64,000 nucleotides of DNA from Armatimonadetes bacterium 55-13 (GTDB lineage Bacteria; Armatimonadota; Fimbriimonadia; Fimbriimonadales; Fimbriimonadaceae): the NCBI GenBank assembly GCA_001898035.1, contig MKRX01000006.1, forward strand, positions 310,436 through 374,435. Reading direction: 5' to 3'. Below, in pieces: positions 35,465 to 40,897 of the stretch. The first letter of the stretch is position 1. Every line of letters starts with the position of its first letter. The notes under the pieces were generated by a model. The model made no database searches. It saw only the letters and a program-made list of their open reading frames with translations, and had not been told where the DNA came from. The position numbers and the translations under genes were made by a program.

Positions 35465-37288
35465 ATGAAGAACTCAGGGTCTTTTAGAAAACAAAGTCGT
35501 TTCATGAGCTCGCTGGTCCTAGCGATTGCCGGAACGACCGCCTTTGCCCAAGAAAAACTGCCCGTCTACGAAGTCGCCGGGCCCCTAGTCACCCCCAATT
35601 CTGGAAAGTCGCTTGCCAAGAACCTTTCTGTAGAGGGAATGGTGGACGCCTCGTCTATCTTCTCTTACTATCCCGCCAAGTCTCCCCTTGTGATTCCGCA
35701 AAAGAAGCTCACTACCGGAATTCAAGAATCAGAAGACCGCGGCGTTCGGGAGGACTACGCGCTGGACCTCGCCGGACTGAACCGGCTGGTCAGCGTCCCT
35801 CGGGCCACCGCACAGCGACAAGTCACTCGCGCCCTTAGCCTTGCCGGCATTCGCCTTCAGGAAGCCAAGCCAATGGTCTCGGAATCGCGACTGGAAATTC
35901 GTGACCCCAAAGGGAAGCCTCTTGCATCCAAGAACCTCGAAACCGTCGTGAGCTACCAAATGTCCCTCGGAGGCATCCCTGCCGTAGGTCCAGGCTTCAA
36001 AGCTCGATTCGCCTTCGCCCCCTCCGGCTCCCTCAGTCAAGCCTATGTCTTCGGCCGCCAACTCAAGAAGGGCCCCGAAGTGCCGCTGATGTCCAAATCC
36101 GAAGCGCTTCAAATGGCCATGGCCTCCTTCGGAACCAAGAACACCAAGTTGACCGCCCGAGTGGTCTACTTCCTTCCTGGCCCTGATGTTGAAGCCAAAC
36201 GGATCTTTCCTCACTACGAAATCGGCGGCACCATGCAGCTGGGTAAGGAAGTGATCAAACTGCGCCCGATGTTCATCCCCGCCGCCAAGGGTTACCTCCA
36301 AGCTTCGGTCTCCGCGAACTCACGCGGCGGATCGGTCAGCGGCAAGGTCTCAATCCGAGGTGGACGCAAACCCTACACCGTGCAATGGGACAGTTCGACG
36401 ACCGATCTTGGCAAAGCGGCCTTTAACGAAAGTGGCGTCCAATACCAAGTCAAAAACCGCTTCGGAACGGAGACCACCAACGAAACGCTGAAAGCGGTCG
36501 TCACCGATGCGGATGGCCTGCGCGTCACCACCTCCTCTTCCCTCAAGGTTGTCACCCTCTTCGACTATTCACCGGAAGCCCTCTTCGCCAGTCTTGCTCC
36601 CACTCCCCGGGCCAAGAAGCCAGGACGCTATGACGGAGCGATCGAATATATCGACTGGGCAACTAACGCGAGTAACTGCCGAAGCGAAATGAACAACCGC
36701 GGCCTTCCCGTCCAGTTCTACTGGGGAGAAAACAACGCCTGGGAACAAGACTTTAAGAAGGAAAGCGCCGGCGGCGACGATAGCAATTGGGTTGATGACG
36801 TAGACGTCACCTTCTATACCGGTCATGCCAATGGTGATGGATTTGTCTTCAAGTCCAACCATGACGACACCTTCCTTCACTATAACGACGCCTCCTGGGG
36901 CGAGCGGGAAGCCGAGTGGATCGTCATCGCCGCATGTGGCCCGCTGCAACCGACCGAAGGTGGACGTGGTCTTGACCGCTGGGTCCCCGCCTTCCGAGGA
37001 CTCCATATCCTGATGGGCTACGGCAACATCAGCTACGACTCGAATGAAGAAGGTCGCAAGTTCATGAATCGAATCCTGCGAAACTCCAATCCCACCAAGG
37101 TCAGAGATGCCTGGATTTCCACCGCCTCGGAAGAGCAACCTTCCGATGTCCTCATGGGACTCATGGGTGTGGTCCGAGACGACTGGGCTTGGAACTGGGA
37201 CGACTACTTCTGGGGCAAGGGTCCGGTCGGGCCAGACATCCCCGCCAACCGTGTGATCGCATATTGGTATTACGTCGTGCCCTGCTAA
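35465..37288 (+). CDS. DUF6345 domain protein, secreted; possible clan CD peptidase
   Basis: A 607-aa secreted protein (start 35465; signal FMSSLVLAIAGTTAFAQ). The frame also opens at 35426 with a GGAG just before that ATG, so the start is uncertain by 13 residues. About residues 50-280 form a domain with the DLAGLNRLVSVPRATAQRQV region; about 290-360 resemble an Ig-like fold (KPYTVQWDSSTTDLGKAA). The C-terminal 220 residues are the DUF6345 region. Two segments there, DVTFYTGHANGDGF and EWIVIAACGPLQ, have the layout of clan CD peptidases: hydrophobic strand, then His-containing loop; hydrophobic strand, then Ala-Cys. Peptidase activity is an inference. The C-terminus ends WYYVVPC. Confidence 0.65.
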   Translation: MKNSGSFRKQSRFMSSLVLAIAGTTAFAQEKLPVYEVAGPLVTPNSGKSLAKNLSVEGMVDASSIFSYYPAKSPLVIPQKKLTTGIQESEDRGVREDYALDLAGLNRLVSVPRATAQRQVTRALSLAGIRLQEAKPMVSESRLEIRDPKGKPLASKNLETVVSYQMSLGGIPAVGPGFKARFAFAPSGSLSQAYVFGRQLKKGPEVPLMSKSEALQMAMASFGTKNTKLTARVVYFLPGPDVEAKRIFPHYEIGGTMQLGKEVIKLRPMFIPAAKGYLQASVSANSRGGSVSGKVSIRGGRKPYTVQWDSSTTDLGKAAFNESGVQYQVKNRFGTETTNETLKAVVTDADGLRVTTSSSLKVVTLFDYSPEALFASLAPTPRAKKPGRYDGAIEYIDWATNASNCRSEMNNRGLPVQFYWGENNAWEQDFKKESAGGDDSNWVDDVDVTFYTGHANGDGFVFKSNHDDTFLHYNDASWGEREAEWIVIAACGPLQPTEGGRGLDRWVPAFRGLHILMGYGNISYDSNEEGRKFMNRILRNSNPTKVRDAWISTASEEQPSDVLMGLMGVVRDDWAWNWDDYFWGKGPVGPDIPANRVIAYWYYVVPC

Positions 37289-37361: not shown

Positions 37362-39569
37362 GTGCGCACCCTCTACACCATCACCCTCTTCTTAAGTTCG
37401 GCCCTTCTGTTCTTGGTTCAACCGATGGTCGCCAAGATGATCCTTCCCCGACTAGGAGGGTCTCCCGCCGTCTGGACCGCCAGCATGCTCTTCTTCCAAG
37501 CGCTGCTGTTGGCTGGATACGCCTATGCCCACTGGTCCACCCGAGCGCTCGGCCTCAGGAGGCAGCCCAAGATTCATTTATTGGTCTTGTTGGGAGCGCT
37601 CGCCGCCATTCCGCTCTTTCTCCATACGGCCCACCAACTACGAACGGGCGAAGCCGCTGGGCTGGACTCTGGAAACGCGAATCCCGTATTCATCGCGCTA
37701 CAGGTACTCGCGGTTCTGATTGGCCCTTTATTCTTCGTCGTTTCGGCAGGAGCGCCGTTGCTTCAGCGGTGGTTTTCGACAACGAGCGATCCACATGCGA
37801 AGGATCCTTATTTCCTCTATAGCGCCAGCAACGTGGGGAGCATGTTGGCGCTGCTCGCCTACCCTTTTCTGCTTGAACCCAGCTTCCCGCTCGGCACCCA
37901 GGCGCTGATTTGGTCGGTGGGTTATGGTCTCCTTGTCATCTTGATGATTGCTTGCGCCTTGGTCCTTCCCAAGGCGGTTACGCCAAGAGAGTCTCAGGCA
38001 GAGTTAGAACAATCTGAAGAAGCTATTTCCAAGAAATCTAAGCTTCGCTGGCTCATTCTATCAGCCGTTCCTTCCAGCCTCTTATTGGGCGTGACGAACT
38101 ACCTCACCACGAACATTGCGCCCATGCCCTTGCTCTGGGTGGTTCCGCTTTCGCTCTATCTCATTACCTTTATCGTCGCCTTTGCCAGCAAGCAGTATGT
38201 GAAGTCTGGCGCTTGGGCCCGAGTCCTCCCTTTGATCGTCACCCCGTTAACGCTAGTGATGATCTTGGAGGCCACCGATCCCATTTTTATTCTGGTGGCC
38301 ATGCATTTGGCAGCATTTACCGTGGCTGCCCTCATGTGCCACACACGGCTGTCGGAAACTAGGCCCCAGGCTTCCAAATTGACGGAGTTCTATCTTTGGA
38401 TATCGCTTGGCGGCGTCCTCGGCGGGCTCTTTAACGCGCTTTTGGCTCCGATCATCTTTAAGACTTTGGCCGAATACCCGGTCGCCATCCTGCTCGCATG
38501 TGCGTTACGTCCGGCAAAGGCTGGCATCGTTCAAAGCCTTAAAAAGGACGTGATGGTTGCCGCGTCTCTGGCGGTAGCCTTATTCGGACTGGTGTTCATG
38601 GCTCTTCAGGCGAACATGCCTCCAAGTCCAGCACGAACGGGACTTCTCATTGGACTTCCCGCGGTGATCTGTTTCCTGATGGTGGAGCGGCCCATTCGTT
38701 ACGCGCTTTCTCTGGGCTCCGTGTTCTTTGTGGCTGCGATGACCTCCGTAAACAGCCCGGGAAAGATCCTCCTGACCGATCGGAGCTTTTTTGGCGTTCA
38801 TCGAGTTCTGGAGCGAGCCCATGGGCGCTATCACGAGCTGGTTCACGGCACCACGACCCATGGCATCCAAGACACTCTAAATCCGGGTGAACCTTTAACT
38901 TACTATGTCCGCCAGAGTCCGATAGGTCAAGTTTTCGACTCCTATACGGGGGCCAACAGGAAAGAGAATGTGGCGTTGGTCGGCCTTGGCGTTGGGTCTT
39001 GTGCAGCGTACGGCGAATCCGGGCAGCACCTAACCTATTTTGAAATCGACCCGGTTGTCGACCAAATTGCGAAAGACCCCCAGCTGTTTACCTATCTGCG
39101 AGATTGCAAAGCCGAAGTCGGCGTAAGGCTTGGCGATGCTCGCCTCACCCTGCGCGAAGAACCGAACGGAAAGTTTGGCTTGATCGTCCTCGACGCCTTC
39201 AGTTCCGACTCCATTCCGATCCACCTTCTTACGCGAGAGGCGATTCAGATGTATCTGACCAAGCTTCAACCCGACGGATTCCTTGCTTTTCACATTTCGA
39301 ATCGGTATCTGGACCTCTCCCCCATCCTCGCCAAAATCGGCGAAAGCCTAGGGATGACAGCTTATGAAGACCGATTCGAACCCAGCCAGGAAGAGCTCGA
39401 AAGTGGTATGCGGCCATCTCGATGGATGGTCCTCGCCCGGCAACGCGAGGACATTGAGCTTCTTCTCGCTAAACACGCTTGGGGGCAGGCCCGCTCCAAC
39501 CCAGGAACTCCGCTTTGGACTGATGACTATTCGAATATCCTCAGCGCGTTTAATCGAGACGGAGGCTAG
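37362..39569 (+). CDS. Membrane-fused spermidine synthase-like protein
   Basis: A 735-aa protein. The first 460 residues or so are membrane helices (SSALLFLVQPMVAKMILPRL at the start; this opening is typical of the fused family) and the remainder is a spermidine-synthase-like methyltransferase fold: VALVGLGVGSCAAYGESGQ, the acidic YFEIDPVV end of strand 2, and LIVLDAFSSDSIPIHLLTRE around the substrate site. These fused proteins are frequent in environmental bacteria and their substrate is undefined; polyamine production should not be assumed. Start GTG at 37362, giving MRTLYTITLFLSS. Confidence 0.88.
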   Translation: MRTLYTITLFLSSALLFLVQPMVAKMILPRLGGSPAVWTASMLFFQALLLAGYAYAHWSTRALGLRRQPKIHLLVLLGALAAIPLFLHTAHQLRTGEAAGLDSGNANPVFIALQVLAVLIGPLFFVVSAGAPLLQRWFSTTSDPHAKDPYFLYSASNVGSMLALLAYPFLLEPSFPLGTQALIWSVGYGLLVILMIACALVLPKAVTPRESQAELEQSEEAISKKSKLRWLILSAVPSSLLLGVTNYLTTNIAPMPLLWVVPLSLYLITFIVAFASKQYVKSGAWARVLPLIVTPLTLVMILEATDPIFILVAMHLAAFTVAALMCHTRLSETRPQASKLTEFYLWISLGGVLGGLFNALLAPIIFKTLAEYPVAILLACALRPAKAGIVQSLKKDVMVAASLAVALFGLVFMALQANMPPSPARTGLLIGLPAVICFLMVERPIRYALSLGSVFFVAAMTSVNSPGKILLTDRSFFGVHRVLERAHGRYHELVHGTTTHGIQDTLNPGEPLTYYVRQSPIGQVFDSYTGANRKENVALVGLGVGSCAAYGESGQHLTYFEIDPVVDQIAKDPQLFTYLRDCKAEVGVRLGDARLTLREEPNGKFGLIVLDAFSSDSIPIHLLTREAIQMYLTKLQPDGFLAFHISNRYLDLSPILAKIGESLGMTAYEDRFEPSQEELESGMRPSRWMVLARQREDIELLLAKHAWGQARSNPGTPLWTDDYSNILSAFNRDGG

Positions 39570-40897
39570 AGAGCCTTCATGCGGATCCAAGGCTGTGTCG
39601 GAATGCTGCGCAGGTAGGGCTGTGCCCATTTTTGCTGCGGAAACTTCTTGAAAAACTCTCCCGGATCGAGGGTACTCCCATCTGAGAAGCCCATTCGTGC
39701 CCAGAGTGACATTTTCCCAACCGAATCGGACGTCCCCACCAGAGAGTTCACCGCTCCACTCAACCCACCAAATCCATCCGCCCGACCGCAGAGCGTGGAA
39801 CCACTAGCGCCCTTACGTCCGAGGACCTCATCATAGGTATCGCCAAGGAACGATTGAGCCAAGACCGCGTCTACCTTGCCCTGATTCTGAGTCAGCAGAC
39901 TGTTCCAACGAACCTTGCGGCGGATGCACCCATTAGCGTTTGGATCGGGGTTGAACCCGATGACTTCGTCTTTGATGATCTTAGGATCTTCTGGAAAGTT
40001 GGATCCCACATAAAAGCCGTCCTTGGTTCGATCGAACACGACATTCTTTAATCCAAGCTGCAGCTTTCCGATCTCGTTGGACCGAGTGTCTGCCATCAGC
40101 CAGGTGTTGGCGTATCCGCCATTATTCCCTTTCTTGAAAATCCGCACCATGTCGTCCAGTGAATTTCCGTACTGGATCGCCTTTCGCATCCTCATGAACT
40201 CCGGCAGGCCTTCGGGATCGAACCCGTGGAAACCGCTGATGGTCGTTTCACACAGCATAAGCCCGGCAGAATTGATCGCGAAGTCACTTCCGCTGTGAAT
40301 GAATCCGCAGAGCGCATCCATCATCACTCGATTCCCCTTTTCCGGTTTGATATCCAGCACCGCGTTAAACCGCTGCCCCATGATGTAGTCCCACCATAGG
40401 TTGTGACCCATGACCACCTTGCCGTCCTTGGTGGTCTTGCCTACCGCCACGAACGCGCTACATGCCTCTTTGGCTCCTGTAACGACCTTTCCGGTGCGTT
40501 GAGATTCTAACCAGGGAACGTAGTATCCGCCGACTTCGATGTGGGCATTAAAAGCCAGCATGTCCCATACATCGTATTTGTATCCCTTGGCCACCATTCC
40601 TTCGGCCATTCCGGTTAACTCTTGCTGATACTCTGGGTCTAACTTCTCCCAGAACAGCTTCTTGGTCTCGATTCGGTACCAAGCCCAGGTTTTCGAACCC
40701 AGCCCGGTGCCCTTTAAGGCTCGATGAGCGTCATCGATCTCAGCGGCCAAGAGATAACCGTATTGAAAGCCGATATCCTTCGGTTTTCCCTCCAGGTGCG
40801 TGTATATCCAACCGGCTTGATCCTTTCGGAACGCCTTGGCAAGTCGGGCGTCGGTCTGAACCTGCAGTAGCGCAACGGCGCCAAGGAATGCGAGCAT
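39566..40897 (-). CDS. C45/phospholipase B-like Ntn-hydrolase
   Basis: A 443-aa exported hydrolase with an N-terminal hydrophobic stretch (MLAFLGAVALLQVQ). The family nucleophile is the Cys that becomes N-terminal after autocleavage; here it is C146 in GAKEACSAFVAVG, followed by the typical VMGHNLWWD and the SAGLMLCETTISGFHGF block. The sequence resembles the phospholipase B-like / C45 acyltransferase family, whose members hydrolyse or transfer acyl amides or esters. It follows waaA on the same strand by 20 nt; a TATTCT box in that gap suggests its own promoter. Overlaps the convergent synthase-like gene by 4 nt. Confidence 0.8.
   Translation of the reverse strand: MLAFLGAVALLQVQTDARLAKAFRKDQAGWIYTHLEGKPKDIGFQYGYLLAAEIDDAHRALKGTGLGSKTWAWYRIETKKLFWEKLDPEYQQELTGMAEGMVAKGYKYDVWDMLAFNAHIEVGGYYVPWLESQRTGKVVTGAKEACSAFVAVGKTTKDGKVVMGHNLWWDYIMGQRFNAVLDIKPEKGNRVMMDALCGFIHSGSDFAINSAGLMLCETTISGFHGFDPEGLPEFMRMRKAIQYGNSLDDMVRIFKKGNNGGYANTWLMADTRSNEIGKLQLGLKNVVFDRTKDGFYVGSNFPEDPKIIKDEVIGFNPDPNANGCIRRKVRWNSLLTQNQGKVDAVLAQSFLGDTYDEVLGRKGASGSTLCGRADGFGGLSGAVNSLVGTSDSVGKMSLWARMGFSDGSTLDPGEFFKKFPQQKWAQPYLRSIPTQPWIRMKAL

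Follow-up and report, generated by a model that had tools for sequence, protein, structure and literature searches.

The gene at 35465..37288 (+) of the window, the term used here for the whole 64,000-nucleotide stretch under analysis, encodes a protein with a C-terminal DUF6345 domain, a family that, judged from sequence comparison and a predicted structure, is clan CD peptidase-like, since its members keep a His-Cys dyad, its predicted fold matches that of caspases, and its profile is akin to those of Peptidase_C14 and CHAT. We consider it probable that DUF6345 proteins form a family of extracellular clan CD His-Cys peptidases, each produced along with a cognate YycI/PepSY-like partner domain, whose most likely role is to fold the enzyme and hold it inactive.

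The open reading frame is complete and real (607 aa). In a Pfam search of its product, DUF6345 (PF19872; residues 400-602, E 3.6e-67) was the only family above cut-off, and an NCBIfam search gave no match. Inspection of the sequence predicts a Sec-type signal peptide at residues 1-28 (35465..35548, +; cleavage between ...SLVLAIAGTTAFA and QEK), which agrees with the earlier claim that the protein is secreted; in relatives from Myxococcota and Deinococcota, lipobox-like cysteines replace the Sec signal. Then come the YycI/PepSY-like partner, or companion, domain (35546..36286, +), an Ig-like beta domain (residues ~279-363; 36299..36553, +), and the DUF6345 domain with its predicted caspase-like fold (residues 387-607; 36623..37285, +). 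DUF6345 is present as a single copy in the window's own genome, where profile searches also gave five matches to Peptidase_C14, one to CHAT, and none to C25.

Clan CD is known for caspases, separase, and gingipains. The preliminary description of this DNA had likened the protein to that clan from the order of two motifs, TGHANGDGF and then IVIAACGPLQ. Both are present and carry, respectively, His454 (codon CAT, 36824-36826, +), the predicted catalytic His, which directly follows strand 3, and Cys491 (codon TGT, 36935-36937, +), the predicted nucleophile just after strand 4, with the His ahead of the Cys in sequence, as in clan CD. They are 37 residues apart rather than the roughly 60 first given, a spacing that lies near clan CD practice; in YabG it is 46 (His161/Cys207 and His172/Cys218; PMC12445089). 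The description had proposed invariance of the two residues as a check, and in an alignment of 52 DUF6345 members, each with a coverage of 170 residues or more, His and Cys each occur in 52/52, an essentially invariant dyad. The residue after the His is G in 41, A in 8, and S in 3 of the 52; the window protein reads G-H-A and lacks the strict H-G form, and a Gly before the His, seen in the window protein and in 39/52, places a Gly next to the predicted catalytic His, as in clan CD. Other strongly conserved positions include His514 (codon at 37004..37006, +; 51/52), which belongs to a GLH motif where strand 5 begins and serves as a family signature, as well as Asp444 (49/52), Trp506 (47/52), and Trp485 (47/52).

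Across the wider set of 64 relatives, the Cys is retained wherever it is covered, and the His likewise with the exception of L009; the other apparent gaps at the His reflect a contig that ends early (L035), a frame-broken gene (L076), and a long insertion with TGHGG still present (L085). The loss in L009 (genome G086) is genuine: IGDGDND aligns with TGHANGD, so that Asp stands at the His position, while the Cys is retained. This protein, in which the partner is fused at the N-terminus, is a candidate natural pseudoenzyme.

An AlphaFold2 model of the C-terminal 238 residues, built with 22 sequences as input, reached a pLDDT of 89.1 and a pTM of 0.88 for the DUF6345 domain. In model numbering, a strand at 79-83 is followed by His85 and a strand at 116-120 by Cys122, these being the third and fourth core strands, and the dyad thus sits where clan CD enzymes carry theirs, at the C-terminal ends of core-sheet strands 3 and 4 (PMC4357240). 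The order of elements, b1-a1-b2-b3(His)-b4(Cys)-a-b5-a-a-b6, is also that of clan CD (PMC4357240); the model has six core strands and a C-terminal strand, and its second and third helices are short. When the model was compared with the PDB by Foldseek, the best 50 matches were all caspases (probability 0.91-1.00, best E 8.7e-5), which bears out the fold expected from the preliminary description, yet TM-scores of only 0.35-0.45 and high rmsd values indicate that the similarity concerns the shared core and not the whole chain. A sequence search of the PDB gave no clan CD match.

Alignments of Peptidase_C14, CHAT, and C25 were built from Armatimonadota genomes and compared with DUF6345 by hhalign, giving scores of 44.1, 37.6, and 23.0, respectively, and of 42.7, 34.7, and 30.5 with a second trimming. 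Comparisons among the clan CD families themselves scored 33.5 (C14-C25), 54.9 (C14-CHAT), and 59.0 (CHAT-C25), whereas alpha/beta hydrolases, which are unrelated, and the N-terminal domain of the window protein scored 10-19.5, and the best of 200 column shuffles reached 21.7 for C14, 18.1 for CHAT, and 20.3 for C25, each below the corresponding DUF6345 score. In the long alignments with both C14 and CHAT, the DUF6345 His falls on the His of the GHG motif and the Cys on the catalytic Cys. Because the profile scores exceed those of shuffled and unrelated alignments, the kinship of DUF6345 with clan CD does not rest on the motif alone. At the level of Pfam, C14 (PF00656) gave matches in 3/22 DUF6345 members, all sub-threshold (best E 0.097), and no CHAT match was found among the members. 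The clan CD reading of the preliminary description is thereby supported by dyad, predicted fold, and profile comparison alike, for what remains a predicted peptidase; of the caspase and gingipain likeness that it had named, the caspase side holds, with Peptidase_C14 and CHAT as the nearest profiles, and the gingipain side is the weakest. The C25 score is barely above the shuffles in one of the two trimmings (23.0 against a best shuffle of 20.3), and untrimmed alignments gave no match. Membership in C25 was rejected on this hhalign range (23.0-30.5) and on the lack of a Pfam C25 match for the window protein.

Features of the putative active site bear on specificity. The residue two before the Cys varies across DUF6345 (D, H, A, or S), and the equivalent residue in caspases helps to set P1 (PMC4357240), so that P1 specificity probably differs between DUF6345 subfamilies. 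Glu394 (codon at 36644..36646, +), at the end of strand 1 and present in 37/40 covered sequences, was compared in position with caspase L1 (PMC4357240), and from this we infer only a candidate S1-pocket residue that might bind a basic P1.

The identity of the upstream domain required a revision. The preliminary description had suggested a propeptide and an Ig-like domain; the latter stands, by strands in the full-length model and weak Ig-type fold and Pfam beta-domain matches, but the former is better described as a YycI/PepSY-like domain. In the full-length model, the region 35546-36286 matches YycI (PDB 2o3o) with Foldseek probabilities of 0.82-1.00, and TM-scores normalised to YycI of 0.33-0.46 are consistent with a shared fold. 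Pfam matches of the partner domains of relatives stay below the family cut-offs, with YycI at 0.007 (16.4 bits against a cut-off of 29.7) and FTP, the thermolysin propeptide motif, at 0.05 (13.9 against 21). A plain N-terminal propeptide was rejected as too narrow, since the partner elsewhere follows the peptidase domain or lies in the next gene. In Chloroflexota, it is fused C-terminally, and this version is homologous to the N-terminal partner of the window type (pairwise hhalign E 3.5e-13) and to the Asgard version (hhalign E 4.4e-25). In Hydrothermarchaeota, Methanoperedens, and other Armatimonadota, the partner is a separate gene immediately downstream (blastp 2.5e-9 against the window protein), and separate partner genes share the strand of the neighbouring DUF6345 gene.

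A scan of all loci with a profile of the partner, which detects the window's own copy at E 1.3e-60 and was built from some of the scanned sequences, most of them not having been used, showed that the partner accompanies DUF6345 in 61/64 distinct proteins, the frame-broken L076 being counted once. It is N-fused in 14 (the window protein included), C-fused in 8, encoded by the next gene downstream in 38 and upstream in 1, and absent in 3, namely L035, whose contig ends early, L038, and L080. The same profile had zero matches in 118 control loci (~431 kb) and none elsewhere in the 64-kb window (495 kb scanned in all, window included).

The relatives were pooled from named genome contigs and whole genomes. 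A scan of the named contigs with a single sequence retrieved no DUF6345 relative, and a five-sequence alignment as query retrieved 21 loci, the bacterial ones from Planctomycetes, Myxococcota, Deinococcota, Chloroflexota, Thiotrichaceae, and Armatimonadetes, and the archaeal ones from Hydrothermarchaeota, Methanoperedens, Bathyarchaeota, and Hermod- and Thorarchaeota; L002 and L026 are one and the same contig. Viral contigs contained no relatives, and a plasmid search gave one match, in Deinococcus peraridilitoris. Within Armatimonadota, DUF6345 is patchy (13/201 genomes), and among the searched genomes of the taxonomic family to which the window belongs, no other has it. Where DUF6345 occurs, the partner nearly always does too: in 12/13 Armatimonadota genomes with DUF6345 versus 6/188 without (p 3.6e-14; 201 genomes), and in 31/33 versus 14/214 genomes of the phylum of Methanoperedens (p 3.0e-26; 247 genomes), p-values that are a guide only, as they ignore kinship and fused genes contribute by construction. 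In these genome sets, the enzyme hardly ever lacks a partner, but the partner is at times present on its own.

A tree was built from 49 DUF6345 domains. It groups the window protein, with full support, with N-fused proteins from Planctomycetes (G201), Myxococcota, and Deinococcota, and not with L002/L003 of its own phylum; the Asgard proteins with an N-terminal fusion make up a clade apart. Parsimony on this tree gives five changes of layout, and fewer are required when only the branches with strong support are considered. Such recurrent joining and splitting of one pair of domains is classically taken to indicate that the two work together.

Several loci depart from the simple pair. In archaea, one DUF6345 gene is followed by five tandem same-strand partner genes (373463-378209) at G335:C1:372741-378209, and another by four, also tandem and on the same strand (108532-112242), at G368:C1:108532-113099. 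L080 (G427:C1:1421677-1461319) has four copies of DUF6345, three of which are spaced ~10 kb apart; the partner profile has no match in this genome. In 14 archaeal genomes, partner genes are present although no DUF6345 was recognised there (G217, G373, G438, G310, G417, and others), and a search for a second enzyme beside such lone partner genes found none, the scanned reading frames being spurious or unrelated. No other neighbour of DUF6345 recurs across phyla, save for a third small gene that follows enzyme and partner in two archaea (L024:3278-3814 and L025:4314-4919); its product, secreted or anchored in the membrane through its N-terminus, belongs to no Pfam family and looks, by eye, like the N-terminal extension found on a partner that stands alone (L227:850-2283).

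Taken as a mechanism, His454, at the C-terminal end of strand 3, would activate Cys491, at that of strand 4, and the enzyme would cut a peptide bond after a P1 residue defined by its pocket. The partner would fold or block the enzyme until the two separate or shift, acting in cis when fused (at the N-terminus in the window protein, at the C-terminus in Chloroflexota) and in trans when it has a gene of its own next to that of the enzyme, an arrangement seen mostly in archaea and other Armatimonadota. Most clan CD enzymes have N- or C-terminal regions that lie over the active site until activation (PMC4357240), and PepSY-type domains have been proposed as inhibitors of partners in the same or a separate protein, YpeB with SleB being an example in trans (PMC4282423). 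More broadly, we give about even weight to the proposal that DUF6345 and its partner represent a two-part extracellular protease system of bacteria and archaea, Asgard included, in which the inhibitor or chaperone became detached and was joined again to either side of the enzyme on several occasions, and in some archaea expanded into arrays.

The same fold and dyad might instead serve mainly transpeptidation, ligation, or protein anchoring, with the partner as the substrate or a substrate-presenting module. The secreted or surface setting, the fused Ig-like domains, and a partner that is fused on either side and sometimes arrayed downstream of one enzyme gene would all suit such a role, and legumain, also of clan CD, is a dual protease-ligase (PMC8491156); however, no recurrent sorting-signal partner or anchoring machinery is found near DUF6345 genes, and the partner resembles known inhibitory domains and not a sorting tag, which makes this alternative unlikely. 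We likewise regard as improbable a conflict system composed of a secreted peptidase effector and an immunity-like cognate partner: the arrays of G335 and G368 and the partner-only genomes would be in keeping with one, but no toxin-delivery domain was seen, and the presence of enzyme and partner in one polypeptide, in the window and in many relatives, fits an internal inhibitor better than immunity. A non-catalytic, caspase-fold binding or scaffold protein that keeps His and Cys for structure or metal binding is very improbable, for although L009 lacks the His and pseudo-orthocaspases are known (PMC6426788), the dyad is invariant even between bacterial and archaeal members that have diverged greatly and in which most other positions vary, and it occupies the positions expected for catalysis.

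As a partner-controlled peptidase family, DUF6345 would stand close to several known systems. CHAT proteins (PF12770) often carry TPR repeats; their GHG and SAC motifs align with DUF6345, and the downstream order of helices and strands is similar. Peptidase_C14 (PF00656; caspases, metacaspases, and orthocaspases) shares the dyad, with the His at the end of strand 3 and the Cys at that of strand 4, and gives the best profile (44.1) and fold matches, but DUF6345 stays below its Pfam cut-off, reads G-H-A in the window, and is secreted with a PepSY/YycI-like partner. Gingipains (C25; PF01364) are likewise secreted, have the same His-Cys order, and align from the His onward; in gingipains it is an N-terminal domain that dissociates (PMC4357240), while the partner of DUF6345 can also be C-terminal or a separate gene. 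For YabG, too, membership of clan CD was proposed from its dyad and motif rather than from sequence homology, but it is a sporulation protease of endospore formers for which no partner domain is described there (PMC12445089). PepSY/YycI-type regulators (YycI, YpeB-SleB, and M4 propeptides) resemble the DUF6345 partner in predicted YycI fold and in occurring in cis or trans beside a secreted enzyme; the partner differs in falling below their Pfam cut-offs and in having a clan CD-like enzyme. Metallopeptidases and a cortex-lytic enzyme are known to occur with domains of this type.

A 2025 review names eight clan CD families (C11, C123, C13, C14, C25, C50, C80, and C84; PMC12445089), and DUF6345 is not, by name, among them. 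Literature searches found no mention of 'DUF6345' and no report of a PepSY/YycI-type domain regulating a clan CD peptidase; the fold assignment may already stand in Pfam's clan table, and these searches turned up no description of the coupled pairing of enzyme and partner. If the proposal is true, a Pfam family of unknown function would receive a function, clan CD would gain a family with members in Asgard and methane-cycling archaea, and the coupled partner would offer a testable control mechanism for a clan CD-like peptidase. Methanosarcina acetivorans is genetically tractable and has a DUF6345 match, so the idea is directly testable.

Two genes downstream in the window may be mentioned. The next gene (37362-39569, +) encodes a 735-aa protein with many membrane segments and, by eye, a spermidine-synthase-like C-terminus, which had no Pfam match at E 1. 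The one after it, on the opposite strand (39566-40897, -), encodes a phospholipase B-like protein (PF04916).
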